Below, in pieces: positions 33,693-63,656 of a stretch of DNA of 64,000 nucleotides (its first letter is position 1; the number at the start of each line of letters is the position of its first letter). The translations under genes and the position numbers were made by a program. The stretch comes from Ensifer adhaerens. Lineage in GTDB: Bacteria > Pseudomonadota > Alphaproteobacteria > Rhizobiales > Rhizobiaceae. The notes under the pieces are model-generated. The model worked only from the letters and a program-made list of their open reading frames with translations, ran no database searches and was not told where the DNA came from. The stretch spans positions 442,994-506,993 of the forward strand of contig NZ_JABEKT010000003.1 in NCBI RefSeq assembly GCF_013283195.1, in the 5' to 3' direction.

Positions 33693-33717
33693 AACCGCCT
33701 GAACGCTGATTGGTTCC
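33693..33717 (-). promoter_or_regulatory. EcfG-type promoter for the DUF1236 gene
   Basis: GGAAC-N17-GTT on the minus strand, 34 bp upstream of the start codon. Divergent from the promoter at 33749-33773. Confidence 0.72.
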
Positions 33718-33748
33718 GATCGACTTACCGCTTTGGCTCTCGGATTTC

Positions 33749-33773
33749 GGAACAATAAAATCGGGTCATCGTT
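33749..33773 (+). promoter_or_regulatory. EcfG-type promoter for the gene at 33817
   Basis: GGAAC-N17-GTT (cGTT form) on the plus strand, 43 bp upstream of the ATG. Confidence 0.72.
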
Positions 33774-33816
33774 TGAAACCGCACCTCCTTTTGGCAAAGG
33801 TAGATCGGAGCTTTTT

Positions 33817-34518
33817 ATGTTTAACAACGCTCGAGACCCAGACAGACGCACGTGTACCATGACTGCGTTCTTTGATAGCCGCTCGCTTGCAGAAGCAGTC
33901 GTCGAGCGATTGCGAGAACTGGAGCTTGGATCCGCTAGTGTCCAACTGGTGATGGGGTCTGGCTCTCAACAGGATATTGAGGCAATCACACCGTTCTGGT
34001 CGGCGCTGGAGAATTTCTTCTTTCCAGCCGAGGACCGCAAGATCTACGCCGAAGGGCTCAACCGCGGCGGATATCTGGTGGCGGTAGCAGGGATTGGCGG
34101 CGACGAGTATGCCGCTGTCCGCGAGATCCTCGATGATGACGGTGCAATCAATCTCGATGAGAGGGTCGATGTCTGGTTTGACGAAGGTTGGTCGGGAATG
34201 AGTCCAGGTGACCGCGACCCGCTCCTTGCGCATGGGAGCGCTCTGCAGGCTATTGCGCCCTCATCAGCCGCTCCAGCCGCCGAGCAAATGTACAGGGACC
34301 ATTCCCGCAGCAGCAACCGACTTAGGGCCTATTCAGGCCGACAGACGCCTGTGCCGATGGGTAACGATTTGACACCCTCGGATGTGAGGACACAATCAGA
34401 GGCGGCCGGGCAGGCGGGTGCCCCTCTCCCCACCGTATCAACGCCAACCGAACACGAGGTGCAGTCTGCGGACGAAGCCCAATTAGGACTGTGGGAGGAG
34501 CCCGGCACCAAACAATAG
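33817..34518 (+). CDS. Stress-associated protein of the YflT/YsnF-like type
   Basis: 233 residues from ATG 33817 (GGAG six bases upstream). The N-terminal 115 residues begin TMTAFFDSRSLAEAVVERLR and contain a glycine loop (GGYLVAVAGIGGDEYAAV) as in general-stress ferredoxin-like domains found with DUF2382/YsnF proteins. The C-terminal half is low-complexity (Ser, Ala, Pro, Gln) and probably disordered. Function unknown. The EcfG-type promoter supports a stress role. Confidence 0.65.
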   Translation: MFNNARDPDRRTCTMTAFFDSRSLAEAVVERLRELELGSASVQLVMGSGSQQDIEAITPFWSALENFFFPAEDRKIYAEGLNRGGYLVAVAGIGGDEYAAVREILDDDGAINLDERVDVWFDEGWSGMSPGDRDPLLAHGSALQAIAPSSAAPAAEQMYRDHSRSSNRLRAYSGRQTPVPMGNDLTPSDVRTQSEAAGQAGAPLPTVSTPTEHEVQSADEAQLGLWEEPGTKQ

Positions 34519-34647
34519 AAAGCGATGTTCAGGCGCCGCCAACTGCACTGTCTCCCCGAAACGATGAGAAGACGAGCTCAGTCATCATCCTGATACGATA
34601 CGCGGGGCGGAGATCAACACCGAACTGGAGCACCAAACCCTGTGTGA

Positions 34648-34871
34648 TCCTACGGTGGCCAACTGGATGCGACCTGGAAGACGGATATGGACCACAAGTT
34701 CCTTCATTTTATCTGGCGTGAGACCGGCCTTGAGAAAATAGCTGAACAGCGAAGCTTCGGGGGTTCGGCACGCATTTGATCGAACGGGACATACCGCGCG
34801 AGTTCGCGGGATCAGTAGAGCAAGATTTCCTGCCCGATGGGCTTTGTCTGAAAATGGTGCTGCCACTTTGA
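34648..34871 (+). pseudogene. C-terminal relic of an HWE-type histidine kinase
   Basis: One frame reads GGQLDATWKTDMDHKF and LHFIWRETG, the strand with the W-x-E motif of HWE kinases. After a frameshift near 34755 the next frame gives RGFGTHLIERDIPREFAGSV and ends in the usual C-terminus LCLKMVLPL plus stop at 34869. The phospho-acceptor and most of the ATPase domain are gone. It lies 82 bp upstream of a single-domain response regulator, its probable former partner. Confidence 0.6.
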
Positions 34872-34953
34872 GCAGATTTGGCATCTCGAAAGCGACCGGA
34901 AGGTAACCTCTCCCGGCTTCTGGCTGATCGAAAGGAGGGGAGAAGGAGGTTAA

Positions 34954-35358
34954 ATGACTGGTCCGCGTTCTGCGGCGCGTTCACTCGAGCGACGACGGAT
35001 CTTGCTTGTGGAAGATCAGTATCTCTTGGCGGAGGAATTAAAGCGGACGCTTGAGAACGCCGGTGCCACCGTCATAGGACCCGCCGGAAGCGCTAGCGAT
35101 GCCCTTGGAATGATTGTTTCTGAAAATCCTGAAGCGGCGATTTTGGACGTCAACCTCAACAACGAGATAGTGTTCCCCGTTGCAGATAAGCTGACAGAAA
35201 CTGGCGTCCCGTTCATTTTCACAACCGGTTACAATCAATCGATCATCCCACAGCGCTTCGACGCTATCCCGCGCTGCGAAAAACCGATCGATGATGTAGC
35301 GGTCCTTCAACTGCTGAGCGGCCTCTGCCAGGCGAGGAGCAGGCCTGAAGCATTTTAA
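34954..35358 (+). CDS. Single-domain response regulator
   Basis: 134 residues, one receiver domain: acidic pair in ILLVEDQYLLAEEL, phospho-acceptor Asp in AAILDVNLNN, Thr in FIFTTGYN, switch Lys in RCEKPID. No output domain. Paralogue of the receivers at 46956 and 53132. GGAGG lies four bases before the ATG. The adjacent HWE kinase is broken, so it must be phosphorylated by another kinase or act as a phosphate sink. Confidence 0.85.
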   Translation: MTGPRSAARSLERRRILLVEDQYLLAEELKRTLENAGATVIGPAGSASDALGMIVSENPEAAILDVNLNNEIVFPVADKLTETGVPFIFTTGYNQSIIPQRFDAIPRCEKPIDDVAVLQLLSGLCQARSRPEAF

Positions 35359-35434
35359 CCCCAGCCGTGAAATATCACGCGAAGGTGTTGACGGGACCTG
35401 CACGTAGTCGACAGCTCGTGTGGAACAAATCTGC

Positions 35435-36448
35435 ATGTTGTTTCTTGTAGCCAACATGAACAACACAATCATGTCTACTGTCATCGTCATGGCGACGTTC
35501 ACCTGCGCTCCTGTTCACGCAGAAGAAATGGCTGATATGGTCAACACCACGGCGCTTTTGGAGATTTTGACAGCCAAGCCAAAACCCTTTCATTCTAGGC
35601 AATCCGAGGCGCCCGATCCCGCCATCATCCGTCTTCAAGTGCTTCTCGATCGCGCGGGTGCGTCGCCAGGCGTCATCGACGGCCATGCCGGCGATAACGT
35701 CCAGAAGGCGATTACCGCATTTGAGGCGATGCAGGGGCTGCCTGTCGACGGCGATCTGGACCGCGAAACCATTGCGCGTCTCGAGACGAGGGAACCAATT
35801 ATCATTACCTATGTCGTTTCGGATGCCGACCTGGAGAATTTGACAGAAAGCATTCCGCACGACTTCGCTAAAATGGCGAGAATGGACCACCTGGGGTTCA
35901 CAAGTGTCGCAGAACGGCTTTCCGAACGGTTCCATATGGACATAGACCTGTTTCACGCGCTCAATCCGCACGCGACCTTGGCCGTTGGCGGAAAAGTACG
36001 CGTGACAGGCACCGGGTCCCCAAAGACGGGACAGGTCGCCCGCATCGAGGTTGACAGTCGAAGGGGGCAAGCCCGCGCCTTCGAGGCGGACGGTCTATTG
36101 ATCGCTGCCTATCCTGCCACGATCGGCAGCGAAGAGACGCCTGCGCCCACGGGCAACCATAAGGTAAAGGGAGTGGCGCACTTACCTGACTACACCTACA
36201 ACCCCAAGGTAAACTTCCAACAGGGAAAGAATGCCGACGTTCTGACGCTGCCAAGCGGCCCTAACAATCCGGTTGGCACGGTCTGGATCGACCTTACGAA
36301 ACCAACCTACGGCATTCACGGGACACCCGAACCTTCGTTGATCGACAAGGTCGGCTCTCACGGATGCGTACGATTGACAAACTGGGATGCAGAGGAACTC
36401 GCCTCGATGGTGAAGCCAGGTGTCGCTGTTATATTCGTGCATGAATGA
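35435..36448 (+). CDS. L,D-transpeptidase with peptidoglycan-binding domain
   Basis: 337 residues. Signal peptide ending APVHA, a PG_binding_1 domain (RLQVLLDRAGASPGVIDGHA then AITAFEAMQGLPVDGDLD), a LysM-like middle segment (FHMDIDLFHALNPHATLAVG), and a C-terminal YkuD domain with the catalytic motif GIHGTPEPSLIDKVGSHGCV. Such enzymes make 3-3 cross-links or anchor proteins to peptidoglycan in the periplasm. Start could be ATG 35435 or ATG 35456; both leave the signal peptide. No clear EcfG-type promoter. Confidence 0.85.
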   Translation: MLFLVANMNNTIMSTVIVMATFTCAPVHAEEMADMVNTTALLEILTAKPKPFHSRQSEAPDPAIIRLQVLLDRAGASPGVIDGHAGDNVQKAITAFEAMQGLPVDGDLDRETIARLETREPIIITYVVSDADLENLTESIPHDFAKMARMDHLGFTSVAERLSERFHMDIDLFHALNPHATLAVGGKVRVTGTGSPKTGQVARIEVDSRRGQARAFEADGLLIAAYPATIGSEETPAPTGNHKVKGVAHLPDYTYNPKVNFQQGKNADVLTLPSGPNNPVGTVWIDLTKPTYGIHGTPEPSLIDKVGSHGCVRLTNWDAEELASMVKPGVAVIFVHE

Positions 36449-37649: not shown

Positions 37650-37927
37650 CTGCGTTCCTCCGGTTGAACCGGGCAACAAGCCTTCGGGACCGATAGATGT
37701 TCTCTGTCACATTCTCTGGAAGCTTCGTCTACCCGCGTAAGCCCGCCGACGCGAACAGAAACTGGTGTCCGAATTTCCTAAAGACCAGAAAACCGGACGG
37801 TTCGCGGGGGGCTAACGCGGGTGGGACAATGAACCGTCCGGCTCACTTGCTATCGTCAAACCTTTGCGTGAGACATATGTTCCGCCGACGGCAAGAAATT
37901 ATCGGCGGGACTAGGCGATAAGCGTAA

Positions 37928-38186: not shown

Positions 38187-38211
38187 AACGTCCGCAGCCA
38201 TCGGATGTTCC
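38187..38211 (-). promoter_or_regulatory. EcfG-type promoter for the gene at 38122
   Basis: GGAAC-N17-GTT (cGTT form) on the minus strand. Confidence 0.7.
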
Positions 38212-38232: not shown

Positions 38233-38743
<511 letters not shown>

Positions 38744-38754: not shown

Positions 38755-39274
38755 CAAATGATGGGACGAGGTTAGCTATAGGGTAGCAACTGGAATAATT
38801 TGATGATGTGCATGCTGGAGTAACCTGTCTGCAGCACATAGGTTCCAAAGCCAAGGAAATCCAAAATTGACAGGATTGCGATGGTGATTGATCGCTGAGA
38901 TGGTGTAGTGACGAGACGCCGAGCTACGGCTTGACAACCGGACAGTGCGCTGGAGCCTTGCCTGAGGCAAATCCATTGTGACGGCGAATGACGGGACTGC
39001 CTTCGTAAACACGCACTCAGGTTTTGCGCAACAGGGCGTCTTATGATTGGCCAAAAGGTCCAGCCAGTTCATGACCCTTTGGAACGATCGGCTGTCGATC
39101 TTCCCAGTTCTGGTCTGCGGCTGAGCTAGCCCAAATGACGCTTGCCACTGAAAAACGCGAATGCCGAACCACTTCCCTGCCGCCACTGCTAGCAGTCGCA
39201 GATCTCACTTGAAGCGGATCCGCACGGACTTGGTATTTCCCGTCCCCCACCAAGGCAGTTTCCAACACGATCCA
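38755..39274. other. Gene-free stretch containing a stress promoter
   Basis: Holds the EcfG-type promoter at 38822-38846. The rest shows no gene with a binding site. Confidence 0.35.
38822..38846 (-). promoter_or_regulatory. EcfG-type promoter for the DUF6894 unit
   Basis: GGAAC-N17-GTT on the minus strand. Confidence 0.72.
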
Positions 39275-39628: not shown

Positions 39629-39653
39629 AACACTTCCAAGCGTTCGATGTTCC
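39629..39653 (-). promoter_or_regulatory. EcfG-type promoter for the gene at 39574
   Basis: GGAAC-N17-GTT on the minus strand, back to back with the promoter at 39686. Confidence 0.72.
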
Positions 39654-39685: not shown

Positions 39686-39711
39686 GGAACAAATTTTGGG
39701 GTCTCGAGGTT
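39686..39711 (+). promoter_or_regulatory. EcfG-type promoter for the DUF6766 gene
   Basis: GGAAC-N18-GTT on the plus strand, 62 bp upstream of the ATG. Confidence 0.68.
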
Positions 39712-39773: not shown

Positions 39774-40430
39774 ATGAACTGGCGTGATCACGGGTTAACC
39801 ATCGTCCTCCTGCTTGCAACGGGCGTGACGGTCGCAGGTATGGTTCTGTCGGGGTTCTCCGTTCACAACACCGAACTCGCGCAACATAGTACCGAACCAT
39901 TATCTTTTCCCGCCTATCTCGCCAGCGGACATTTTCTCTCGGCGCTCTTTGAAAACTGGGAAAGTGAGTTCCTGCAAATGTCGGCCTATGTCGTGTTGAC
40001 CGCCTTCTTGTTCCAAAGGGGCTCTGCCGAATCGCGAGATCCTGACCAAGAGAAAGAAGCAGACCTCGTAGCGAGCCCGAGCCATATCGCTTTACCACAC
40101 AGTCCAGAGAGGAAAGGAGGCATGCTGAAAACCATCTATGCCTATTCGCTTGGTTTGGCTCTGATGGGCCTCTTCATTCTCAGTTTCGTCCTCCACCTCA
40201 AATTCAGCCAAGCCGCCCACAATGTGGAAGCCGCCACTCACGGAAACGAAGGGGTCAGCCTCGTGGCGCACATTGCAAGCGCGGAATTCTGGTTCGAGTC
40301 GTTTCAAAACTGGCAATCGGAATTTCTTTCGACTGCAGTGCTTGTCGTGCTCTCGATTTTTCTGCGCTTCAGAGGCTCGCCGGAATCAAAATCGGTCGAG
40401 GCGCCGAACTCGGAGACCGGGTCGTCGTAA
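39774..40430 (+). CDS. DUF6766 family membrane protein
   Basis: 218 residues made of two similar halves. Each half has a membrane helix (LTIVLLLATGVTVAGMVLSG; LGLALMGLFILSFVLHLKF), then a (G/E)-F-x(4)-F-x-N-W-x-SEFL element (ALFENWESEFL; ESFQNWQSEFL), then a second helix ending in (Q/R)RGSAES or RGSPES. It is an inner-membrane protein of unknown function. AAGGA precedes the ATG. Confidence 0.8.
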   Translation: MNWRDHGLTIVLLLATGVTVAGMVLSGFSVHNTELAQHSTEPLSFPAYLASGHFLSALFENWESEFLQMSAYVVLTAFLFQRGSAESRDPDQEKEADLVASPSHIALPHSPERKGGMLKTIYAYSLGLALMGLFILSFVLHLKFSQAAHNVEAATHGNEGVSLVAHIASAEFWFESFQNWQSEFLSTAVLVVLSIFLRFRGSPESKSVEAPNSETGSS

Positions 40431-41378: not shown

Positions 41379-41403
41379 AACCGCGCTGGAGTGCTTCCGT
41401 TCC
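41379..41403 (-). promoter_or_regulatory. EcfG-type promoter for the gene at 41330
   Basis: GGAAC-N17-GTT on the minus strand. Confidence 0.72.
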
Positions 41404-41674: not shown

Positions 41675-41700
41675 GGAACAATATCCCCACAAACCTGGTT
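41675..41700 (+). promoter_or_regulatory. EcfG-type promoter upstream of the phospholipase D gene
   Basis: GGAAC-N18-GTT on the plus strand, 214 bp before the chosen start. The long leader leaves room for a small upstream frame (ATG 41741). Confidence 0.6.
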
Positions 41701-41914: not shown

Positions 41915-43429
41915 ATGACATCCGAACACTTTGCCCCCCAGAAGCGGACGATACCTATTGGCGCGCTTGGCTCCTCTCAGGATTCCTCGTTCTTTAATCT
42001 CGGACATAACGTGTGGAAGACGGCGAGGGCCGAAAAGGTGGCTATACTTGTCGACGCTGCTGCGTATTTTCGCCAGATACAGATGGCCTTTGAACAGGCG
42101 CAACGAGAGATCTGGATTGTGGGATGGGACTTTGATCCGGATATTCTGATTGATCCTGCTGCCCACGATCCGCAGACGCTGTCGCATCTGCTCGAACGTG
42201 CCCTGGACAGAACTCCCGATTTACGGGTCCGGATCCTCGTTTGGGCGTTTGGACCTCTCTACTCCGGAAAATCACTGAAATTGTTTCGCAAGCGCGGGAT
42301 ACTCTCCCATGAGCGCGTGACAATCGCTTTCGATCTGCGTCACCCATTTTTCGGGTCCCACCATCAAAAACTTGTCACAATCGATGCAGGCCTTGGCTTC
42401 GTGGGCGGGATGGATCTGACCGCTAGACGATGGGATGACAGCGATCACCGGCCTGACAATCCGATGCGTGTTACACCAGATGGCAAACCCTATGACCCTG
42501 TGCACGATGTACAGGCTGCGGTTTCAGGACCGGCAACGCAGATGATCCGCGCGTTGGTACGCCGGCGCTGGTATCATGCGACGGGAGAGGTCGTTGAGCC
42601 TGTTGAAACCAACGCGGACCAGTGGCCCGCATCCCTGCCTGCGGACTTTAGCGGCTGCCAGACCGCTTTGTCGCGTACCGAGCCGCACCGCGATCGGCTG
42701 CGCTCACGCCGCGAATCGATAAACCTCATCCACGACGTTTTGCGCCAAGCCCGAAAGCATATCTACATCGAAGCTCAATATCTTGCGTCGTTCGGGCTCG
42801 CCGAGGTTTTGCTCAAGCGGCTTTATGAGGAAGATGGACCTGAAATCGTAGTGGTGGTGACCCGCTCCTCGCATGGCCTAATCGAGAAGCTTGTCATGGG
42901 CGATAACCGGGACCGCTTGATCCGAAAGCTCAAGCGCGCCGACCGCCATGATCGTTTGTGGGTCATGTACCCCGTTGTTCCTGACACGGCCGGGGCCGAA
43001 AGAGAGATCCTTGTCCATTCAAAGGTCCTCATCGTCGATGATCTGTTCCTGCGCGTGGGCTCTTCCAACCTCAATCGCCGATCGGAAGGACTTGATACGG
43101 AAGCCGACTTTTCGATTGAAGGTCGCGATGATGGATGTCGGAAAGGAATTGCCAGTGTTTGCGCGCGCCTTCTTGCCGAACATCTCGCCTCGACACCGAG
43201 CGAGGTGCACAATGTGCTTGAGGCCACGGGGTCATTGAGGGAGACAATTCGACGGTTGAACAGATCCACGCGTGGGCTTCGCCATTTCGACATCGACCTT
43301 GCACGTGGACCAACGCAGGCCGTCGCGGGCACTGCCCTAGCCGACCCCCGCCGCCCATTTCACCCCATCGCGACGGTGCGCGGATTTGTAGAACGTGTGA
43401 TCTCACGCTTGTTTGGCCTTGGGGCCTGA
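41915..43429 (+). CDS. Phospholipase D / cardiolipin synthase family protein
   Basis: 504 residues from ATG 41915. Two HKD motifs: HHQKLVTIDAGLGFVGGMDL and HSKVLIVDDLFLRVGSSNLN. The N-terminal segment AILVDAAAYFRQIQMAFEQA followed by IWIVGWDFDPDI is typical of ClsB-like enzymes. It should catalyse phosphatidyl transfer at the membrane. A longer frame opens at 41762 but is Arg-rich and unlike the family. Its 3' end overlaps the convergent flippase gene by 27 bp. Confidence 0.88.
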   Translation: MTSEHFAPQKRTIPIGALGSSQDSSFFNLGHNVWKTARAEKVAILVDAAAYFRQIQMAFEQAQREIWIVGWDFDPDILIDPAAHDPQTLSHLLERALDRTPDLRVRILVWAFGPLYSGKSLKLFRKRGILSHERVTIAFDLRHPFFGSHHQKLVTIDAGLGFVGGMDLTARRWDDSDHRPDNPMRVTPDGKPYDPVHDVQAAVSGPATQMIRALVRRRWYHATGEVVEPVETNADQWPASLPADFSGCQTALSRTEPHRDRLRSRRESINLIHDVLRQARKHIYIEAQYLASFGLAEVLLKRLYEEDGPEIVVVVTRSSHGLIEKLVMGDNRDRLIRKLKRADRHDRLWVMYPVVPDTAGAEREILVHSKVLIVDDLFLRVGSSNLNRRSEGLDTEADFSIEGRDDGCRKGIASVCARLLAEHLASTPSEVHNVLEATGSLRETIRRLNRSTRGLRHFDIDLARGPTQAVAGTALADPRRPFHPIATVRGFVERVISRLFGLGA

Positions 43430-44366: not shown

Positions 44367-44391
44367 AACGAAAGGCAGGCAAACTGGTTCC
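44367..44391 (-). promoter_or_regulatory. EcfG-type promoter for the YbhN-like gene
   Basis: GGAAC-N17-GTT (cGTT form) on the minus strand, 32 bp from the start codon. Confidence 0.75.
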
Positions 44392-52427: not shown

Positions 52428-52452
52428 AACTGGAAGATGGACGCCATGTTCC
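52428..52452 (-). promoter_or_regulatory. EcfG-type promoter for the gene at 52392
   Basis: GGAAC-N17-GTT on the minus strand. Confidence 0.72.
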
Positions 52453-52797: not shown

Positions 52798-52822
52798 AAC
52801 GTTCAGCGGAGGTCGCCGTTCC
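52798..52822 (-). promoter_or_regulatory. EcfG-type promoter for the KTSC relic
   Basis: GGAAC-N17-GTT (cGTT form) on the minus strand. Confidence 0.68.
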
Positions 52823-54886: not shown

Positions 54887-56353
54887 TCAGGCAGTGCGCC
54901 GAAACTCCTCCTCCTTGCTCAGCAGTCGGGAATAGAGTTGGCAATATTGACTAGCGCTTCGCTCCCAGGAACTGTCGGCCTTCATCGCTTGTCGTCTAAG
55001 CCTGTCCCAGGATCGGTGTCTGCGATATAGCTTGAAGGCCCTCCTCAAGGCATGCCTTAGTCCGGCGTGGTCTATGGGCAGGAATTGAATGCCAGTCGCG
55101 GCCTGCGCGTGAACTGCGGCGTCGTTGGCATCAATGATCGTTTCGGAAAGGCCGCCCGTACGCGCGACAATCGGAACGCAACCGTACCGCATCGCGTATA
55201 ACTGCGTGAGGCCACAGGGCTCGAAGCGTGACGGGACCAGCATCGCGTCGGAACCGGCATGGATAAGATGGGCGAGCCTTTCGTCATAGCCGATGCGAAC
55301 GGAGACATGGTCGGGGTACCTCTGGGCAGCGTTGATAAATTTCCGTTCAATGGCGGGATCTCCCTGTCCATGAACGACCAGCATTCCACCCCGCGTGGCA
55401 AACTCATCGACGACATCGGCAAGGAGGTCCATTCCCTTTTGCCAAGTCAGGCGATTGACGCTTGCAAACACTGGGCCGTTGCGGTCCGCAAGATCGAAAT
55501 GGTCCAGCAGGTCTTTACGATTACCAAGGCGCTTCAGGGGAGTGCGAGACGAAAACGGGTAGTTGATATGGGGATCGCGGGACGGATCCCAAACGTCGAG
55601 GTCAATCCCGTTGACAATCCCCACGACATCGTCATGGCGTGCGTTCATCACGCCATCAAGGCCCATCCCTCCCTCCGGCGACATAACCTCGCGCGCGTAG
55701 GTGGGGCTGACCACTGTGATAGTGTGAGCACTCATCACGCCCGCCTTGAGGTAACCGAGCTCGCCGTAGTATTCCAGCACCTCGGCGTAAGCTTCGTCTG
55801 GCAGCCCTAGCCGGGCAAAGTGGCAGGCGGGGAACTGACCTTGGAACGCCAGGTTGTGAACGGTAAGCACTCGAGGGATATCGGGCTGTCGCCCATATTT
55901 GAGATAAACCAGCGACAGCGCCGAATGCCAGTCATGCGCATGAACGATGCATGGCCTCCAACCGGCGACGCCGTTTTCCCCGATATCCGACCCAACGGCG
56001 GAGAGTGCGGCGAAGCGTTTCCAGTTATCGGCGTAGTCCTTTCCATGAACATCAAGATACGGCCCTCCCGTCCTGTCAAAGAACGCTGGAGCGTCGAGTA
56101 TCAGAAGCTCCAGTCCATCGAATTGAGCGGAAAGGAGTTTTGCCCGTTCGCCAAAAAGATCATCGTACTTCCTCACAACCGATGCTTCAGGCAAGGCGCG
56201 AAGGATTGTCGGATATCCAGGGACGAGCGTTCTCACGCGCACTCCAAATGCCGCCAAGGCTTTCGGTAAAGAACCCGCGACATCGGCCAGTCCACCGGTC
56301 TTCACCAAGGGGAAGATTTCTGCTGTCACGGCAAGAATGTTCATATCCGCCAT
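54887..56353 (-). CDS. glgA: Glycogen synthase GlgA
   Basis: 488 residues, GT5 family. The ADP-glucose-binding KTGGLADVAGSLPKAL is near the N-terminus, the middle has HDWHSALSLVYLK, and the C-domain has VNRLTWQKGMDLL and SRFEPCGLTQLYAMRYG. It extends alpha-1,4-glucan from ADP-glucose in the cytosol. Start may be ATG 56353 or ATG 56344. EcfG-type promoter 40 bp upstream. The glucan it makes feeds GlgX, TreY and TreZ encoded nearby. Confidence 0.95.
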   Translation of the reverse strand: MADMNILAVTAEIFPLVKTGGLADVAGSLPKALAAFGVRVRTLVPGYPTILRALPEASVVRKYDDLFGERAKLLSAQFDGLELLILDAPAFFDRTGGPYLDVHGKDYADNWKRFAALSAVGSDIGENGVAGWRPCIVHAHDWHSALSLVYLKYGRQPDIPRVLTVHNLAFQGQFPACHFARLGLPDEAYAEVLEYYGELGYLKAGVMSAHTITVVSPTYAREVMSPEGGMGLDGVMNARHDDVVGIVNGIDLDVWDPSRDPHINYPFSSRTPLKRLGNRKDLLDHFDLADRNGPVFASVNRLTWQKGMDLLADVVDEFATRGGMLVVHGQGDPAIERKFINAAQRYPDHVSVRIGYDERLAHLIHAGSDAMLVPSRFEPCGLTQLYAMRYGCVPIVARTGGLSETIIDANDAAVHAQAATGIQFLPIDHAGLRHALRRAFKLYRRHRSWDRLRRQAMKADSSWERSASQYCQLYSRLLSKEEEFRRTA

Positions 56354-56392: not shown

Positions 56393-56418
56393 AACCCAGC
56401 GCGGGGGCGGAATGTTCC
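56393..56418 (-). promoter_or_regulatory. EcfG-type promoter for glgA
   Basis: GGAAC-N18-GTT on the minus strand. Confidence 0.65.
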
Positions 56419-56454: not shown

Positions 56455-56479
56455 GGAACAAACGGTTGAATCGCTTGTT
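56455..56479 (+). promoter_or_regulatory. EcfG-type promoter for the small gene at 56582
   Basis: GGAAC-N17-GTT on the plus strand; divergent from the glgA promoter. Confidence 0.65.
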
Positions 56480-56772: not shown

Positions 56773-56797
56773 GGAACTTTCGCGACTGGTCGCTGTT
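56773..56797 (+). promoter_or_regulatory. EcfG-type promoter for the gene at 56820
   Basis: GGAAC-N17-GTT on the plus strand, 22 bp before the ATG. Confidence 0.73.
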
Positions 56798-57054: not shown

Positions 57055-58848
57055 TCAGCGGTCGGACCTTGGGCTTTTGCTATCTACCGCTATCAAGAGT
57101 GACATCGGTGGCATTTCTGGACCATGGAATTTGCCACCGCACCGCCATATGGTCGAACCACTGACTGGCGTGGCGTTGCACGGCATTTCGGAAAAATTTG
57201 CACGCAACTGCAGACAGTCATCACCGAATTGCCAGTCAACAGCGATGATACCCGCACGGGTAGCTGCAACCTGTACGAGCGGTGGCCCCATCGGAAGGAG
57301 CGGCACCACATGCTTGAACCGTAGATGTGTTAGTTCGCGAATTAGCTTGCGCGTCCTGCGCCCCGAGGCACTCTCCGCTTTCTGCCAGTCCAATTTGGAT
57401 GAAAGGAAGGTTTCGCGCCCAATGGGGTCTGGCAGGTCCTCGATCTTCAGATCGCGCGGGACGTTACCAAAGTTACGTGCCTCTTGCGGGCGCTCCATTC
57501 TAATGGACGTCGCCATCTCTCCACCATAATCGGCAAAGAAGTGAAACGGACTTGTTTCCCCATATTCATCACCCATGAACAGCAACGGGATGTGAGGAGT
57601 GAGAAGCAGCAAAGATGTGAGGACATCCATCTTGTCCTGACCGATAAGGCTCACGAGCCTGTCGCCCAGCAAACGGTTGCCGACCTGATCATGGTTTTGC
57701 AGGAAACTGACGCGGGCATAGAGCGGAACTCGCGCCTTTTTGCCAGTTGACGTGCGAGAGTTGAAGCCGGTGGCCAGCACCTCCTTGAGAACTTCCGTCG
57801 GCTCGGCGGCGAACGGTTTATAGTGACCATGGTGTTCGTGCGTCAGCAGAACGTGCAAAGCGTGGTGGAAGTCATCGTTCCATCCCGCCGAAAACAATAA
57901 AGGTCTGTCTTCGTCATGGGCCACCAACCGCGGTCGCCGCTCGGCATCCTCCACGATCAGATGCAATTTTCGATCGGGAAAGCTTTCACGCAATGATACA
58001 GCGAGGTGTTCCAGGAAAGGCGGCTTTCCTGTGTCGGTGATATGTTCCACCGCGTCGAACCGCAGACCGTCAATACGAAACCGGCCCAGCCAATGGCATG
58101 CATTGTCAAGAAAATATCGACGGACCTCGGGACGATCGAAATCGATGCCAGCGCCCCACGGTGTATCTCGATCGCCATTGAAGAATGCGGAGGCATAGCG
58201 TGACAACTTATTTCCTCGCGCACCGAAATGATTGTACACCACGTCAAGAATGACCATCATGCCAAGTCCGTGGGCGGCGTCCACGAGTGCTTTGAGATCA
58301 TCCGGGGTGCCGTAGGCGTTGTGGGGTGCGAAGTGGAGGACACCATCATACCCCCATCCGCGATCTCCCGGAAAATGTCCCACCGGCATGAGCTGGATTG
58401 CCGAGATACCGATCTCGGCAAGTTCGGCAAGTCGAGGTATCGCCGCAAGGAACGTTCCTTCCGGCGAAAACGTTCCGACGTGTATCTCCGAAATGATAGC
58501 ATCGGTCCAAGGGCGCCCACGCCAGTCGTCATGCTTCCATTGGTAGATCGAATGATCGACCAGGAGCGAAGGACCTTCAAGCGAGCCCACTTGGGCGTGC
58601 GAGGCAGGATCAGCTACCATTGTTCCGTCGGCTAGAACAAACTGATACTCGGCTCCTGCTTGCACATCGCAGTGCAAGGAAAACCAACCGTCCCCAGCGT
58701 GCGACATCTCCAGCTCCTGCCCACACAAGGCAAGGCCCACCCGCTGCTCGTCAGGCGCCCAGATGCGAAACAATGTCTTGCCGGGCGGCGACGTTATGGA
58801 CGTTCCCCAGACTGGGGAAAGATTGTCTTCAACTTTTTGGATAAGCAT
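57055..58848 (-). CDS. treZ: Malto-oligosyltrehalose trehalohydrolase TreZ
   Basis: 597 residues from ATG 58848. N-terminal beta-domain (KTLFRIWAPDEQRVGLALCG), then the GH13 barrel: SEIHVGTFSPEGTFLAAIPR, MMVILDVVYNHFGARGN, RIDGLRFDAVEHI, LHLIVEDAERR and SFLQNHDQVGNR. It releases free trehalose from the product of TreY. Cytosolic. Divergent from glgX, each with its own EcfG-type promoter in the 158-bp gap. Confidence 0.95.
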   Translation of the reverse strand: MLIQKVEDNLSPVWGTSITSPPGKTLFRIWAPDEQRVGLALCGQELEMSHAGDGWFSLHCDVQAGAEYQFVLADGTMVADPASHAQVGSLEGPSLLVDHSIYQWKHDDWRGRPWTDAIISEIHVGTFSPEGTFLAAIPRLAELAEIGISAIQLMPVGHFPGDRGWGYDGVLHFAPHNAYGTPDDLKALVDAAHGLGMMVILDVVYNHFGARGNKLSRYASAFFNGDRDTPWGAGIDFDRPEVRRYFLDNACHWLGRFRIDGLRFDAVEHITDTGKPPFLEHLAVSLRESFPDRKLHLIVEDAERRPRLVAHDEDRPLLFSAGWNDDFHHALHVLLTHEHHGHYKPFAAEPTEVLKEVLATGFNSRTSTGKKARVPLYARVSFLQNHDQVGNRLLGDRLVSLIGQDKMDVLTSLLLLTPHIPLLFMGDEYGETSPFHFFADYGGEMATSIRMERPQEARNFGNVPRDLKIEDLPDPIGRETFLSSKLDWQKAESASGRRTRKLIRELTHLRFKHVVPLLPMGPPLVQVAATRAGIIAVDWQFGDDCLQLRANFSEMPCNATPVSGSTIWRCGGKFHGPEMPPMSLLIAVDSKSPRSDR

Positions 58849-58877: not shown

Positions 58878-58902
58878 AACCCGGGAAGCACTCCAACGTT
58901 CC
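58878..58902 (-). promoter_or_regulatory. EcfG-type promoter for treZ
   Basis: GGAAC-N17-GTT on the minus strand, 30 bp from the start codon. Confidence 0.72.
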
Positions 58903-58926: not shown

Positions 58927-58951
58927 GGAACAAAGGGGGTGGATCAGCGTT
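58927..58951 (+). promoter_or_regulatory. EcfG-type promoter for glgX
   Basis: GGAAC-N17-GTT (cGTT form) on the plus strand, 56 bp from the start codon. Confidence 0.75.
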
Positions 58952-59006: not shown

Positions 59007-61082
59007 ATGGATCTGACTTTTTCTAAGCTCGATTTTCTCAAGCCGGAACTCGGGGCCGAATACACCGGCCAAGGGACTCATTTCGCCCTCTTTTCCGCAC
59101 ATGCCGAGAAGGTTGAGTTGTGCCTCTTTTCAAACGATGGAGAAAAAGAGGTAGCGCGCATGCCACTGCCTGAGCGGGAGGGTGATATCTGGACGGGCTA
59201 CATCGAGGGGATCAAACCCGGCGTCGTCTACGGATATCGCGTTCACGGACCATACGAACCAAGAAAGGGCCACCGCTTCAATCCGAACAAGCTGCTGCTT
59301 GATCCTTACGCGAAACAGATCATCGGAAGCCTGAAGTGGGACGATGCACTTTACGGTTACACGATCGGTCACAAGAATTGCGATATGTCATTCGATCACC
59401 GCGACAGCGCTGCATTCATGCCCAAGGCCGTCGTCGAGGACCCGGAGTTTGACTGGTCGGGAGAGGAGGCAATTCGTCGACCCTGGACTGATACCATCAT
59501 CTACGAAGCGCATGTGCGCGGGCTCACCATGACTCACCCGAAAGTGCCGGACGCCATCCGCGGAACCTTCAAGGGAATGGCCCACCCCGCAACGATCGAT
59601 CATATCGCCAGCTTGGGGGTTTCAGCCATTGAGCTGCTTCCGATCCAGCATTTCATCAATGACAGGCACCTCATCGAGAAGGGCCTCACCAATTATTGGG
59701 GTTACCAGCCTCTTGGATACTTCGCGCCCGAACCTGGATATCTTTCCGAGGGCATTGGCGAGTTCAAGGCTATGGTCAAGGCATACCACGCCGCTGGCAT
59801 CGAAGTCATAATGGACGTGGTCTACAATCATACCGGCGAGGGCTCCGAACGTGGTCCGACGCTGAGCTTTCGGGGCATCGACAATCTTAGCTACTATCTG
59901 CAGTCGCCAGATGAGATGCGTCATACGTTTGACACGACTGGAACGGGCAATACCCTCAACGTCGCCCACCCGATGGTCATGCGCATGGTTCTCGACAGCC
60001 TGCGATATTGGGTCACCGTCATGCATGTGGACGGTTTCCGTTTCGATCTCGCAAGCACGCTCGGGCGGGAGGGGGATGGGTTTGACAGGAACGGCGGCTT
60101 TTTCGATGCAATCCGGCAGGATCCGGTCCTCGCGGGCGTCAAGCTTATCGCGGAGCCTTGGGATATTGGGGAGGGCGGATATCAGCTTGGCGGATTTCCC
60201 CATCCTTTCCGCGAGTGGAACGATCAGTTTCGGGATGATGTTCGTCGCTTTTGGAGACAAGACCAAGGCGTGTTGCCGACGCTGGCTGAACGCGTAGTCG
60301 GCTCCCCAATCCAGTTCGATCACTCCGGGCGGGCCGCGACTTCCTCCATCAATTTCCTCAGTGCGCATGATGGCTTCACCTTGTCCGATGTTGTGGCCTT
60401 CGATGAAAAGCACAACGACGCAAACGGTGAAGACAATCAGGACGGACATTCCAACAATAACTCGCACAATCTCGGCGCGGAGGGTGCAACGGAGGATAGG
60501 GATATTCTGGCGGCGCGAACCCGGCGTCGGCGCGCGATGATGGCCACGCTGATGTTCAGTCAAGGCGTGCCAATGCTGCTCGGGGGCGATGAGTTGAGCA
60601 ACTCCCAAAACGGCAATAACAACAGCTACTGCCAGGATAACGAAATAGGATGGATCGACTGGGACGGCGGGGACCCCGACTTTTTTTCATTCTGTCGCGC
60701 CGCGATCGAGTTTCGAGGCCGCTTTCAGTTGCTTCGCCACGACCGGTTTATGACCGGCGAGGTCGGCGATCCACACAGTGTGACTGTCCAGTGGCTGGGT
60801 CTGGATGGGCGGCCGCTGAAGGAGGAGAACTGGCATGAAATGGACAGGCACCATCTGGTCGTTTTGTTGACCGGACATCAAGAACTGACAGGCACCCAGA
60901 TTCTACTGGTCTTCAATGCGGGTGACGCGTGTGAGCTGAAGCTGCCTGAACCGGCCCATCGCTCGTGGCAGCGTGCATTCGACAGTTCTGGCAAGACCAG
61001 TACAATACCGGAATGTGGCGAGGTCGATATGATAGAGGGCCAGTCTGTGTCCGTCTTCCTGTCGCAAGCCGCGGGGTCCTAA
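59007..61082 (+). CDS. glgX: Glycogen debranching enzyme GlgX
   Basis: 691 residues from ATG 59007. N-terminal CBM48-like domain (GTHFALFSAHAEKVELCLFS), then GH13_11 motifs: EAHVRGLT, IEVIMDVVYNHTGEG, MHVDGFRFDLASTLG, VKLIAEPWDIGEGGYQ and SINFLSAHDGFTLSD. It cleaves alpha-1,6 branches, giving linear chains for TreY. This gene fills the TreX position of the TreXYZ trehalose route. Confidence 0.95.
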   Translation: MDLTFSKLDFLKPELGAEYTGQGTHFALFSAHAEKVELCLFSNDGEKEVARMPLPEREGDIWTGYIEGIKPGVVYGYRVHGPYEPRKGHRFNPNKLLLDPYAKQIIGSLKWDDALYGYTIGHKNCDMSFDHRDSAAFMPKAVVEDPEFDWSGEEAIRRPWTDTIIYEAHVRGLTMTHPKVPDAIRGTFKGMAHPATIDHIASLGVSAIELLPIQHFINDRHLIEKGLTNYWGYQPLGYFAPEPGYLSEGIGEFKAMVKAYHAAGIEVIMDVVYNHTGEGSERGPTLSFRGIDNLSYYLQSPDEMRHTFDTTGTGNTLNVAHPMVMRMVLDSLRYWVTVMHVDGFRFDLASTLGREGDGFDRNGGFFDAIRQDPVLAGVKLIAEPWDIGEGGYQLGGFPHPFREWNDQFRDDVRRFWRQDQGVLPTLAERVVGSPIQFDHSGRAATSSINFLSAHDGFTLSDVVAFDEKHNDANGEDNQDGHSNNNSHNLGAEGATEDRDILAARTRRRRAMMATLMFSQGVPMLLGGDELSNSQNGNNNSYCQDNEIGWIDWDGGDPDFFSFCRAAIEFRGRFQLLRHDRFMTGEVGDPHSVTVQWLGLDGRPLKEENWHEMDRHHLVVLLTGHQELTGTQILLVFNAGDACELKLPEPAHRSWQRAFDSSGKTSTIPECGEVDMIEGQSVSVFLSQAAGS

Positions 61083-61117: not shown

Positions 61118-61142
61118 GGAACATGAGCGGTCGATGGCGGTT
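61118..61142 (+). promoter_or_regulatory. EcfG-type promoter downstream of glgX
   Basis: GGAAC-N17-GTT on the plus strand, 36 bp after the glgX stop; it would serve the small frame at 61216. Confidence 0.55.
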
Positions 61143-61449: not shown

Positions 61450-61962
61450 CTAAAGGATTGGATTGCCACTCATTTTGTTCGTGAGTTCCTCGCGAGCTCG
61501 ATTGAGGCGGCTTTTGATGGTACCGATCGCACAGTCGCATACATCAGCGGCTTCCTTGTAGCTCATTCCATACCCAGCGACGAGTACAAGGACATCACGA
61601 TGTTCTGGCGACATCGCCAGCAGCGCCGCGCGCATGTCCAGGTCCAGGACGAACCACTCCTGCGACGGCGGGATCGCGATGGGCATGTCGGCACAATCAA
61701 TGACGCCGGGAGCTTCTCGTCTGCGCACTTTGTACTGTGTCCGGAACGTATTATGCATGATCGTGAAAAGCCAGGATTTGAGGTTTGTCCCAACCTCGAA
61801 ACGGTCGATGCTGCGTAGTGCCCGAAAGAGGGTTTCCTGCACCAGATCGTCACTTTCATATCGCGAAGAAACGAAGGTACGAGCAAAGGCCCGTAAGGCC
61901 GGAATTAGATCCACCACCTGGTCCTCGATCGCAGCTGGTTCTCGTTCAGCATGTATGGTCAT
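61450..61962 (-). CDS. ECF sigma factor of the EcfG (RpoE2) type
   Basis: 170 residues from ATG 61962. Region 2: LIPALRAFARTFVSSRYESD, DLVQETLFRALRSIDRF, LKSWLFTIMHNTFRTQYK. Region 4: MRAALLAMSPEHRDVLVLVA, YGMSYKEAADVCDCAIGTIK, SRLNRAREEL. EcfG-type factors recognise GGAAC-N-GTT promoters, which crowd this half of the window. No intact nepR or phyR lies beside it, so it looks like an accessory plasmid-borne copy controlled by host components or by local regulators. Confidence 0.9.
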   Translation of the reverse strand: MTIHAEREPAAIEDQVVDLIPALRAFARTFVSSRYESDDLVQETLFRALRSIDRFEVGTNLKSWLFTIMHNTFRTQYKVRRREAPGVIDCADMPIAIPPSQEWFVLDLDMRAALLAMSPEHRDVLVLVAGYGMSYKEAADVCDCAIGTIKSRLNRAREELTNKMSGNPIL

Positions 61963-62109: not shown

Positions 62110-62889
62110 TCAGCGAAGAAGCCCCTGGCCTCCATCGACCCAAAGGGGACTGCCGGTGACATGTCGTGACTGGCTTGAACACAGAAACCAGACGGCATCG
62201 GCGATGTCGGAAGGCAACCCCGGCTTCCCCCCGGTGATCGGAACGTCCCCCTCTGGCCATTCGACCGGGATGGCCGTTTCTTCCTCGCCGCGCAAGGTCG
62301 TGTTATCGCCTATCTTTGTGGTGATCGCTCCTGGACAAACGGCATTGATCCGAATGTGATGCCTGCCCAATTCAAGGGCGAGTTGCTGCACCATTGCAAC
62401 TTGGGCGGCTTTGCTTGCAACATAGGCGGTGGCGCCAGGAGTGGTGAACGTACGAGTGCCATTGATCGAGGAAATGACAACTATGGATCCGCTTCCGTTC
62501 GCCTTTAGATACGGTATGGTCAGATGGAGCGTAAGATACGTTCCGCGCAAATTGACCGCGATCGTTTCATCCCATTCATCAGGTTTAATGTCATCAATGG
62601 GCGCCCAGACCCCATTAATGCCGGCATTGGCGACAACGAAATCGAGGTGCCCTTCCTGATCGACTAATAGCTCGATAGCCGATCTCATCTGTTTTTCATC
62701 AGCTATATCTGCTTCAAGCACCATAGCCCGACCACCTTCCGCATTGATGGTGTCGACCGTTCGGCGCAAATCGGTAAGGCCACGTCCTAGCGCGCCGACA
62801 GCCACTTTCTCGCGAGCCAAACGGCGCGCTACGGCTTTGCCGATGCCGGAGCCGGCGCCGGTCACGAGCGCCACGGGTGAACGAGCCAT
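62110..62889 (-). CDS. Short-chain dehydrogenase/reductase (SDR)
   Basis: 259 residues from ATG 62889 (AAGGA six bases upstream). Nucleotide-binding VTGAGSGIGKAVARRLA, Asp in LEADIADEK, NAG motif in FVVANAGINGVW, catalytic Ser in VISSINGT and Tyr-x-x-x-Lys in TAYVASKAAQ. A classical NAD(P)-dependent oxidoreductase; substrate unknown. Divergent from a 24-residue membrane protein, each with an EcfG-type promoter. Confidence 0.9.
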   Translation of the reverse strand: MARSPVALVTGAGSGIGKAVARRLAREKVAVGALGRGLTDLRRTVDTINAEGGRAMVLEADIADEKQMRSAIELLVDQEGHLDFVVANAGINGVWAPIDDIKPDEWDETIAVNLRGTYLTLHLTIPYLKANGSGSIVVISSINGTRTFTTPGATAYVASKAAQVAMVQQLALELGRHHIRINAVCPGAITTKIGDNTTLRGEEETAIPVEWPEGDVPITGGKPGLPSDIADAVWFLCSSQSRHVTGSPLWVDGGQGLLR

Positions 62890-62918
62890 GGGAATTCCTT
62901 GTTGCGTGCGAGGACTAG

Positions 62919-62943
62919 AACAGCCCAACCGATCAAGTGTTCC
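62919..62943 (-). promoter_or_regulatory. EcfG-type promoter for the SDR gene
   Basis: GGAAC-N17-GTT on the minus strand, 30 bp from the start codon. Confidence 0.72.
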
Positions 62944-62973
62944 ACACTGATGGGCAGAAAGAGCTACCACCGG

Positions 62974-62998
62974 GGAACACACCGTCTCGCTCGTTGTT
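62974..62998 (+). promoter_or_regulatory. EcfG-type promoter for the 24-residue membrane protein
   Basis: GGAAC-N17-GTT on the plus strand, 28 bp before the ATG. Confidence 0.72.
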
Positions 62999-63025
62999 AC
63001 GACCTCACAGCAAAGGAGTGTGGAT

Positions 63026-63100
63026 ATGAACCAGATTGTCTATCTCGTCGGACTTGTCGTCATCGTGATCGCCGTTCTCTCGTTCTTCGGGTTGAGTTGA
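63026..63100 (+). CDS. 24-residue single-span membrane protein
   Basis: Only 24 residues: MNQIVYLVGL, then VVIVIAVLSFFG and a two-residue end, so nearly all one membrane helix. AAGGAG lies seven bases before the ATG and an EcfG-type promoter 28 bp upstream. Both support a real gene despite the size. It may be a stress-induced membrane peptide that modulates a larger partner; that is inference. Confidence 0.68.
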   Translation: MNQIVYLVGLVVIVIAVLSFFGLS

Positions 63101-63107
63101 GCAGGCC

Positions 63108-63602
63108 TCATCGTAACGACAGTCCCTGACCGCTGCGCACTGTAGGGGTCCCCCGACTGTGATCGCCAAGTGCAACGATAACATCGGTCACGTCGCGCGC
63201 AGCGCGCAGCCGCGCCAACAGTTCTGGGTCCCGAAAGATTCGGGAATGACGGGCAAGTGCAGGCAGAAAGCCATTCTGGCGCGACGTCGGCCAGATCAAC
63301 ATGATGACGACATCGACGGGTACATTTATGTCGTGGTTGAAGATAACGGGGTCCCGAAGAAGGATCAAAAGCTTGAGTGGTTCCGGCAGTTTGCGAAGAA
63401 AAGCATGCGGAATTGCCACGCCAGCACTATTAGCAGTGGAACCTAGCTTCTCACTTTCCCGCACTGCCTTCAAGATTTCCTCCGACGGTAGTCCGGCAGC
63501 TTTGGCAAGGACCAGTGAACCCGCCTTGAGGACCCTATCAACGTCCGTGGCGAGAAGCCCGGTGATTATCTCCTCCGGGGAAAAGAAAGGGCTCTCCAAC
63601 AT
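63108..63602 (-). CDS. PTS IIA domain protein (PtsN-like)
   Basis: 164 residues from ATG 63602, set by AAGGAGG five bases upstream. The fold starts FFSPEEIITGLLATDVDRVL, and the phospho-acceptor His lies in GVAIPHAFLRKLPEPL; the C-domain has FLPALARHSRIFRDPELLAR. In rhizobia such proteins are regulatory (nitrogen PTS) rather than sugar importers. It stands alone here, between a stress peptide and otsB. Confidence 0.82.
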   Translation of the reverse strand: MLESPFFSPEEIITGLLATDVDRVLKAGSLVLAKAAGLPSEEILKAVRESEKLGSTANSAGVAIPHAFLRKLPEPLKLLILLRDPVIFNHDINVPVDVVIMLIWPTSRQNGFLPALARHSRIFRDPELLARLRAARDVTDVIVALGDHSRGTPTVRSGQGLSLR

Positions 63603-63631
63603 ATCGACCTCCTTGCAATTGCTATCATCCA

Positions 63632-63656
63632 AATTCGCCAGATGCTTCATTGTTCC
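63632..63656 (-). promoter_or_regulatory. Looser EcfG-type promoter for the PTS IIA gene
   Basis: GGAAC-N18-TT on the minus strand with AATT in place of GTT, 30 bp from the start. Confidence 0.4.

Follow-up and report, generated by a model that had tools for sequence, protein, structure and literature searches.

INTRODUCTION

The PhyR-NepR-EcfG partner switch brings together an extracytoplasmic function (ECF) sigma factor of the ECF15 type, a small NepR-type protein and the regulator PhyR, which carries an N-terminal sigma-factor mimic composed of regions sigma2 and sigma4 followed by a C-terminal receiver domain (PMC4598750). Plasmid-borne EcfG2 factors are already known as a separate branch of the family; the control of Rhizobium etli EcfG2 by NepR has been called unclear (PMC3892343), and the sole known NepR of this organism is described as chromosomal (PMC8103513). 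In Sinorhizobium meliloti an unannotated RsiA-like open reading frame (ORF) has been noted at the gene of the plasmid-borne factor RpoE5 (PMC6180224). This article describes a 64,000-nucleotide stretch of Ensifer adhaerens DNA (contig NZ_JABEKT010000003.1, here C14, positions 442,994–506,993; hereafter the window) which encodes a sigma factor of the RpoE5/EcfG2 type, a short NepR-like protein and a receiver-sigma2 fusion (Rec-sigma2) within a block crowded with EcfG-type promoter sites.

On the evidence assembled below, it is somewhat probable that a second, cut-down partner switch controls this sigma factor, which would in part read a conserved accessory stress island located on a repABC megaplasmid. 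The genome comprises 7.07 Mb in 20 contigs, and C14 accounts for 743,332 bases. Coordinates are positions in the window unless prefixed by C14, C17 or C1.

A DENSE AND CONSERVED BLOCK OF EcfG-TYPE SITES

The promoter motif was defined as exact GGAAC-N17-GTT or GGAAC-N18-GTT. The second part of the window (33,601–64,000) contains 33 such sites, compared with a mean of 2.11 and a maximum of 7 in 100 dinucleotide shuffles, and the first part (1–33,600) contains 5 (shuffle mean 1.72, maximum 5). The excess is confined to spacings 17 (25 sites) and 18 (8 sites), the remaining spacings from 8 to 29 giving 0–4 matches each. An earlier note made from the letters of this DNA had reported a dense set of 23 exact sites; the density is confirmed and contradicts the equal frequency in randomised sequence which the note had named as grounds for abandoning the idea, whereas the count was too low, although it roughly equals the 24 sites which are non-genic by crude gene calling (called genes of at least 60 amino acids), the other nine lying within called genes. 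A same-strand start occurs within 150 bp of 17 of the 33 sites, all of them among the 24, so that the earlier statement that nearly all sites lie 20–120 bp upstream of a start was too strong, while the back-to-back pairs that it mentioned reappear as six divergent pairs in the window. Of 22 matches at 16 control spacings, 11 are non-genic and 7 near a start, and position alone therefore distinguishes real from chance sites only modestly.

Genome-wide enrichment was not found (398 motif matches versus 438 for the reversed pattern), hence the clustering is local. The island, C14:476–530 kb, holds 46 sites or 8.5 per 10 kb, with 4.75 sites expected from eight control spacings, and the genome outside C14 holds 289 sites in 6.33 Mb or 0.46 per 10 kb, a comparison of site density of the kind that the note had proposed. 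Successive 10-kb segments of C14 from 470 kb contain 3, 9, 13, 11, 4, and 6 sites, and the block runs past the end of the window to approximately C14:530 kb. Two more motif clusters occur on C14, at 180–260 kb (21 sites) and 560–580 kb (8 sites), and a palindromic double motif that matches on both strands is found at 58,449–58,476 within the treZ-like frame.

The block was compared with plasmid pT173c of Ensifer canadensis (NZ_CP083373.1) by pairing island genes with the best E. canadensis ORFs at an identity of at least 45%, re-used E. canadensis ORFs being dropped before counting. In the 300 bases upstream of the 31 pairs the motif precedes 14 genes of the own plasmid and 19 of E. canadensis, with both members carrying it in 13 cases (Fisher p 0.002); six control spacings gave one and one, respectively, in the same test. 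In 11 of the 13 shared cases the two plasmids differ by no more than 14 bp in the distance from site to start (e.g., 48/48, 31/32, 55/59), and the spacer sequences of the shared sites differ. Gene order is mostly collinear but inverted, and the region 76–176 kb of pT173c contains 68 motif sites where 8 are expected. As judged from promoter positions and gene order, the island is a regulon conserved between species and probably not a recent insertion. The "mobile or accessory stress regulon" of the earlier note thus holds as regards accessory; mobility in the sense of recent transfer of a block is unlikely, since much of the gene order is shared with pT173c.

The plasmid location claimed in the note is supported by a repC gene (4,007–5,221, minus strand), the product of which is 58% identical to the annotated RepC of pT173c over residues 1–397, the match covering 4,031–5,221 (C14:447024–448214). 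Genes presumed by position to be repA and repB occupy 5,417–7,653. The presence of repC indicates that C14 represents all or much of a repABC megaplasmid.

A SIGMA FACTOR OF THE RpoE5/EcfG2 TYPE

The window sigma factor (61,450–61,962, minus strand) has ECF-type sigma2 (PF04542, 1.1e-15) and sigma4 (PF08281, 7.6e-13) regions and shares 72% identity with the protein encoded at pSymB 1,405,336–1,405,833 of S. meliloti. The latter is most probably RpoE5 (SMb21484), in view of similarity, of its location on pSymB and of the small RsiA-like ORF that adjoins its gene. Maximum-likelihood analysis places Shinella nearest to the Ensifer copies (bootstrap 89), followed by Martelella and a gene of R. etli p42f that, from its position and the order of accessions, is taken to be EcfG2/PF00052. 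This branch is split from nepR-linked EcfG at a bootstrap of 98, its internal order being weak (55), and three other ECF factors of the own genome split off at 100, leaving the window factor grouped with EcfG. By similarity and tree position the window sigma factor is thus the predicted orthologue of S. meliloti RpoE5, a member of the plasmid-borne EcfG2 branch and not a canonical EcfG; the earlier note was right in placing an EcfG-like factor here but missed its non-canonical type. Its association with the island suggests that it may read GGAAC-type promoters.

Upstream of the sigma gene and on the same strand lies a gene for a short-chain dehydrogenase/reductase (SDR) (62,110–62,889, minus strand; Pfam adh_short), possibly in one operon with it, and this order is kept in E. 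canadensis. The canonical phyR, nepR, and ecfG genes are found at C17:122.7–123.7 kb and a second phyR/nepR pair at C1:1.156 Mb. The two PF18557 matches of the genome are on C17 and C1, so the window sigma factor is not encoded with canonical nepR/phyR, a separation that is typical of the non-canonical EcfG2 branch.

A SHORT NepR-LIKE PROTEIN AND A Rec-sigma2 PROTEIN

A two-gene operon on the plus strand encodes the candidate partners of this sigma factor. Its first gene (52,919–53,107) specifies a short NepR-like protein of 62 amino acids, a candidate anti-sigma factor, which matched no Pfam family and is not among the PF18557 matches of the genome. Its core, DD-x-PD-x-LLxLAxRLQxAL, is conserved in 10 aligned Ensifer copies (16 invariant columns over 10 rows), an eleventh copy (locus L017) being more divergent. 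The Ensifer profile aligns with the second segment of NepR (E-x-x-P-D-R-x-x-x-L) with an hhalign P of 1.3e-4 and a probability of 54, a score reached by none of 200 column shuffles, and 15 diverse short NepR rows give a P of 1.4e-6, a probability of 90 and a score of 35.2, the best of 200 shuffles reaching 16.4. With the NepR hidden Markov model (HMM) alone, E-values of 1.7e-5 (Mesorhizobium), 3.8e-5 (Martelella), and 0.003–0.007 (three further short NepRs) were obtained. The protein thus appears to resemble the second half of NepR only.

The second gene (53,132–53,740) encodes a Rec-sigma2 protein of 202 amino acids, a candidate anti-anti-sigma factor, in which a receiver is followed by a PhyR_sigma2 domain (PF22029, residues 139–190, E 1.2e-7, above the cut-off) and no sigma4 match appears in the Pfam scan. 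PhyR is its best NCBIfam family, far below the cut-off of that family, and a plain canonical PhyR label is ruled out by the reversed domain order and the lack of sigma4. Residue D59, which the alignment suggests to be the phospho-acceptor, is invariant in 10 aligned Ensifer proteins with a mean column identity of 78%.

Structure models were built from six-row alignments. The whole protein (predicted local distance difference test, pLDDT, 77.6) shows three C-terminal helices, and its best 50 Foldseek matches are mainly receivers and two-domain regulators, for which reason the C-terminal domain was also modelled alone (pLDDT 86.3). The first 35 PDB matches of the latter are all sigma factors, initiation complexes or PhyR, including the RpoE-NepR complex 5uxx, with template modelling scores up to 0.80. 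The receiver is closest in PDB to Sma0114 and SdrG (2lpm, 4.6e-13; 5ieb, 2.2e-12), with PhyR lower. In alignment with EcfG, the DDLVQ motif is changed to AD-x-LVE in the mimic, which ends before the basic stretch present in true sigma factors. We take both features to be contact residues of sigma factors for polymerase or DNA, and the alterations would fit a loss of these contacts. The mimic is 36% identical to the sigma factor of the window (E 1e-5) and 42% identical over 62 amino acids to those of S. medicae and S. fredii.

Sigma2-like sequences also occur elsewhere on C14. A 93-amino acid ORF without a receiver (C14:526234–526515), approximately 70% identical to an E. canadensis ORF, is preceded by an EcfG-type site at 29 bp in the own plasmid and 27 bp in E. 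canadensis and is possibly a feedback mimic; another such stretch (C14:564586–564735) lies in a 164-amino acid ORF.

PROPOSED REGULATION

The scheme considered somewhat probable above can be outlined as follows; every binding, phosphorylation and sigma-promoter pairing in it is one that we infer. The promoter sites and their conservation, the families of the genes, the joint inheritance of the three genes and the altered -10 base are observed. Sigma factors of the EcfG family would read the island promoters, with the local RpoE5/EcfG2-type factor taking a part. The short NepR, possessing the second NepR segment only, would keep this sigma factor inactive until the receiver of Rec-sigma2 has been phosphorylated, the likely donor being a PAS-HWE kinase such as that encoded at 47,643–48,647. 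The region-2 mimic at the C-terminus of phosphorylated Rec-sigma2 would then capture the short NepR, and the freed sigma factor would transcribe the island, including trehalose and glycogen enzymes and envelope proteins, with kinases and regulators as feedback.

A wider proposal, for which we consider the chances evenly balanced, is that plasmid sigma factors of the RpoE5/EcfG2 type have a switch of their own (a one-segment NepR and a PhyR analogue of reverse order with region 2 only) and a promoter subclass lacking the -10 C, and so form a separable, inheritable stress regulon beside the chromosomal response.

THE BASE BEFORE GTT AND THE CANONICAL REGULON

The base preceding GTT tends to differ between the two sets of promoters. 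Canonical nepR loci (31, including many from close relatives) have C there in 64 of 73 sites, and R. etli EcfG1 targets carry CGTT as well (PMC3892343). The 46 island sites have 13 C, 20 G, 10 T, and 3 A, and 11 Ensifer Rec-sigma2 loci have 5 C and 20 G in 37 sites. Outside the genus, C occurs in 27 of 34 sites at 13 canonical nepR loci, compared with 8 C and 42 G in 75 sites at 13 plasmid loci of RpoE5/EcfG2-type sigma factors or Rec-sigma2. For 16 genomes, a genome-wide excess was computed as the number of GGAACA-N15/16-GGTT or -CGTT matches minus that of a reversed-pattern control, covering the C and G forms only. C precedes GTT in 9 of 10 canonical and 13 of 46 island sites of the own genome (p 0.0005), and the GGTT excess is 10–26 in the 10 genomes which have the three-gene module versus 6–11 in the 6 others (17.6 against 8.5; p 0.002, per Mb 0.004), p values that overstate independence as these tests use related genomes and are not tree-aware. 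The CGTT excess did not differ between the same groups (18.0 and 15.7, p 1.0).

A strict G specificity is opposed by three counts: no base is favoured in the E. canadensis block (19 C, 18 G, 17 T, and 14 A in 68 sites) or around rpoE5 in S. meliloti, S. fredii, and S. medicae (6 C, 7 G, 4 T, and 5 A in 22), and three of four sites of Mesorhizobium huakuii carry C. "Relaxed, often G" is therefore a safer description than "G-specific."

These data bear on the strongest alternative, in which the island simply belongs to the canonical EcfG (RpoE2) regulon, run by the nepR-phyR-ecfG genes on C17 and C1, and the local sigma factor and its partners add little. The canonical genes are indeed present, the GGAAC…GTT core is common to both promoter sets and the E. 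canadensis block fits this view; furthermore, S. meliloti RpoE2 appears to activate more than 100 genes and also activates rpoE5, and overexpression of RpoE5 yielded one target in the published account (PMC6180224). Against it, CGTT, dominant at canonical loci, is absent from most island sites, the GGTT excess tracks the module across 16 genomes all of which have canonical nepR and ecfG, and the R. etli EcfG1 motif is reported in 1 of 19 EcfG2-dependent units (PMC3892343). We regard this alternative as unlikely, although it deserves serious consideration.

DISTRIBUTION AND LINKAGE OF THE THREE GENES

The distribution was surveyed in a genus sample of 16 genomes and an order sample of 248 other genomes, with at most 12 candidates per genome scored in the latter. 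Whole-length Rec-sigma2 is found in 10 of the 16 genus genomes. The sigma factor, short NepR and Rec-sigma2 occur together in 10, none of them in 5 and a more distant sigma factor (61%) alone in 1, that is, they are co-inherited (one-sided Fisher 1.2e-4 and 0.0014, kinship ignored). In the order sample, Rec-sigma2 matching at least 170 of 203 model positions is present in at least 9 of 248 genomes, a match with an internal stop (G123) having been left out. Rec-sigma2 also occurs on plasmids of Shinella, Martelella, and Mesorhizobium and, weakly and without a Pfam match, in Tistrella. A contig scan with the single Rec-sigma2 protein found nothing, and the same scan with the alignment gave 8 loci, 5 of which are Ensifer copies over nearly the full length.

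The short NepR gene precedes the Rec-sigma2 gene at all 11 Ensifer loci, 5 of which have an exact EcfG site upstream of the operon. It is also found near Rec-sigma2 (within 10.5 kb) at all four plasmid loci of Shinella, Martelella, Mesorhizobium, and Tistrella and at 6 of 9 order-sample loci. In Shinella zoogloeoides the sigma gene, a convergent short NepR gene and Rec-sigma2 are all neighbors. Convergent short NepR and sigma genes, without a Rec-sigma2 match in the stretch read, are seen in S. meliloti, S. fredii, S. medicae, another Shinella and M. huakuii, and in Paracoccus the two genes are 1.2 kb apart; the short NepR gene is thus convergent with or near an RpoE5-type sigma gene in S. meliloti and 5 of 10 further plasmids. 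The S. meliloti 1021 member is a small ORF on the minus strand of pSymB (approximately 1,405,878–1,406,054), convergent with rpoE5, and would fit the RsiA-like ORF noted in the published account (PMC6180224).

The short NepR profile was seeded first with 13 sequences, picked partly by eye and pattern, and then with a second set of 14. Matches in neither set are L021, L029, L122, L125, S. meliloti and five plasmids, and loci L017, L118, L119, and L124 entered only with the second set. In the first profile run no locus lacking a Rec-sigma2 gene came under E 2, and the best decoy (L113) had an E-value of 0.49.

The same linkage argues against the possibility that the short NepR and Rec-sigma2 are decoys that tune the canonical circuit by binding its PhyR, NepR, or EcfG and do not act on RpoE5. 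Such a role has a parallel in Methylobacterium extorquens, where binding to PhyR is reported for two NepR paralogues out of three and binding to a sigma factor for none (PMC4814048). Nevertheless, the presence of the genes goes with that of close RpoE5-type sigma factors (12 sigma and 12 short NepR genes across the 16 genomes), canonical nepR and ecfG being present in all 16; S. meliloti and four other plasmids have the short NepR and sigma genes in convergent orientation; and the mimic matches RpoE5-type sigma factors, canonical EcfG being absent among the matches listed at E 0.001. A decoy function is consequently improbable.

It is very improbable that the two genes are functionless, decaying remnants of phyR and nepR. 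Both proteins are shorter than the canonical ones, lacking sigma4 and the first NepR segment, and a second Rec-sigma2 copy of one genome (G014, C2:37428–38043) is apparently split between two frames, although a short NepR gene still lies ahead of it and a second RpoE5-type sigma gene is close by. On the other side stand the invariant residues of ten Rec-sigma2 proteins, D59 included, the invariant columns of the 62-amino acid family and the occurrence of similar two-domain proteins in Shinella, Martelella, and Mesorhizobium. That the motif is an artefact of chance or base composition, devoid of promoter function, has a negligible probability, since shuffles, control spacings and conservation across species contradict it in spite of the lack of genome-wide enrichment and of a nearness to starts only modestly above that of control spacings.

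Several observations weigh against control of the local sigma factor by a cut-down partner switch, in addition to the single RpoE5 target and the base counts without a bias against C mentioned above. With the NepR HMM alone the Ensifer short NepRs have E-values of 0.5–6, so that their link to NepR passes via intermediates of other genera. The Rec-sigma2 receiver (PF00072, residues 9–88) scores E 2e-6 and 28.4 bits, just under the cut-off of 30.2, and in the Rec-sigma2 proteins of Shinella, Martelella, and Mesorhizobium, which have the same domain order, both domains score under their cut-offs. The Foldseek E-values of the C-terminal model are weak, from 0.019 upward. The window operon has neither an exact nor a one-mismatch EcfG site in the 450 bp upstream. 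The search for a short NepR gave no match around 3 of the 9 order-sample Rec-sigma2 loci, within 4 kb of the sigma gene in 5 of 10 plasmids (those of R. sophoriradicis, Chelatococcus and Phyllobacterium and two of Agrobacterium tumefaciens, approximately 8.4 kb read in each) and across 50 kb of R. etli p42f. Finally, S. meliloti, S. fredii, and S. medicae have the sigma factor and the short NepR, and no Rec-sigma2 in the stretch read; the third part is thus not always there or not always near.

INDIVIDUAL PROMOTER SITES AND GENES OF THE ISLAND

Eleven sites of the window are conserved in E. canadensis, with distances to the start given here first for E. canadensis and then for the own plasmid: 38,187–38,211 (minus strand; 74 and 64 bp), 38,822–38,846 (minus; 73 and 78), 41,379–41,403 (minus; 48 in both), 41,675–41,700 (plus; 228 and 214), 44,367–44,391 (minus; 32 and 31), 47,540–47,565 before the PAS-HWE kinase gene (plus; 30 and 35, start as chosen for orthologue pairing), 49,246–49,270 (plus; 131 and 124), 56,393–56,418 before glgA (minus; 29 and 39), and 58,927–58,951 before glgX (plus; 59 and 55), together with two whose distance differs, namely 49,151–49,175 (minus; 94 and 217) and 62,919–62,943 before the SDR and sigma genes (minus; 194 and 29). 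Further exact sites precede a start by 34 bp (33,693–33,717, minus), 44 bp (33,749–33,773, plus), 210 bp (37,859–37,883, minus), 55 bp (39,629–39,653, minus), 63 bp (39,686–39,711, plus), 36 bp (52,428–52,452, minus), 103 bp (56,455–56,479, plus), 23 bp (56,773–56,797, plus) and, for the treZ-like gene, 30 bp (58,878–58,902, minus). At 52,798–52,822 (minus) the next same-strand start is 406 bp off, 54,812–54,837 (minus) has no close start, and 61,118–61,142 and 62,974–62,998 (both plus) have no called start downstream.

Pfam scans covered 30 window proteins out of the gene calls. The PAS-HWE histidine kinase named above as a candidate phosphodonor (47,643–48,647, plus strand) matches HWE_HK (4.5e-21) and PAS, and its promoter is conserved. 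Two single-domain response regulators resemble the Rec-sigma2 receiver: one at 46,956–47,348 (minus; 43% over C14:490009–490299, 79% to E. canadensis) and one at 34,954–35,358 (plus; 41% over C14:477986–478279, PF00072). Carbohydrate metabolism is represented by a treY-like malto-oligosyltrehalose synthase (44,488–46,965, plus) and a treZ-like malto-oligosyltrehalose trehalohydrolase (57,055–58,848, minus), 57 and 37% identical to the annotated treY and treZ products of pT173c, as well as by glgA glycogen synthase (54,887–56,353, minus; 77% to annotated glgA) and glgX glycogen debranching enzyme (59,007–61,082, plus; 76% to annotated glgX). The stress genes which the earlier note saw under EcfG-type promoters are in keeping with this cargo and with the promoter positions kept in E. 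canadensis.

Other products, assigned by Pfam, include a phospholipase D-like protein (41,915–43,429, plus; PLDc, 71% to E. canadensis), an LPG_synthase_TM membrane protein (43,403–44,335, minus; 73%), an NAD(P)H-dependent FMN reductase-like protein (49,323–49,937, plus; 80%), a DUF6894 protein (38,492–38,743, minus; 78%), a DUF6766 membrane protein (39,774–40,430, plus; 1.8e-81), an L,D-transpeptidase of the YkuD family (35,435–36,448, plus), a phosphotransferase system (PTS) EIIA-2 domain protein (63,108–63,650, minus), and a DUF1236 protein (33,369–33,659, minus). Plasmid loci of related sigma factors have similar cargo: ferritin-like and cytochrome P450 genes are found in R. etli and R. 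sophoriradicis, and on the pAt plasmids of A. tumefaciens the EcfG2-type sigma gene directly adjoins treZ, with glgA and DUF6766 nearby in pAt1.

Within the otherwise largely collinear island, genes at approximately C14:511–521 kb mostly lack an E. canadensis match, and one 840-amino acid product among them resembles, by eye, a cytochrome oxidase subunit. Just past the island, the start of a 1102-amino acid ORF (C14:531937, minus strand) resembles a TraA-type relaxase, also by eye.

COMPARISON WITH DESCRIBED SYSTEMS

Among open-access titles and abstract openings, which leave subscription journals largely outside, no reverse-order PhyR, short NepR family or plasmid EcfG2 promoter class was found described. 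The present analysis names concrete candidate partners for the control of non-canonical plasmid EcfG factors, some of which have no annotation or just that of a "hypothetical" protein, and the promoter difference could explain the absence of an EcfG2 motif in the R. etli motif search. If the scheme is true, a minimal partner switch would consist of sigma region 2 and the second segment of NepR, offering a natural experiment on which elements of the PhyR-NepR interface suffice.

R. etli EcfG2 (PF00052) and S. meliloti RpoE5 (SMb21484) share the sigma branch and the plasmid location with the window factor, but Rec-sigma2 is not linked to them in the portions of the literature drawn on here; for R. 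etli EcfG2 no anti-sigma factor lies near in the corresponding part of the published account, in agreement with the 50 kb of p42f mentioned above. Sma0114 and SdrG, the closest likenesses of the Rec-sigma2 receiver in PDB, are single-domain response regulators without a sigma-mimic domain. The genome of M. extorquens, which has several EcfG paralogues, likewise encodes additional NepR-type proteins, but these are described as keeping most PhyR-contact residues (PMC4814048) whereas the Ensifer short NepRs match the second segment only. With the PhyR-NepR-EcfG switch itself the locus shares an ECF15-type sigma factor, a small NepR-type protein, a receiver-sigma-mimic fusion, a nearby HWE kinase and GGAAC-type promoters. 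It differs in the C-terminal position of the mimic, which is N-terminal in PhyR, and its lack of sigma4, in the missing first segment of the NepR-like protein, in the location of the sigma gene apart from the two-gene operon, and in island promoters that mostly lack C before GTT.

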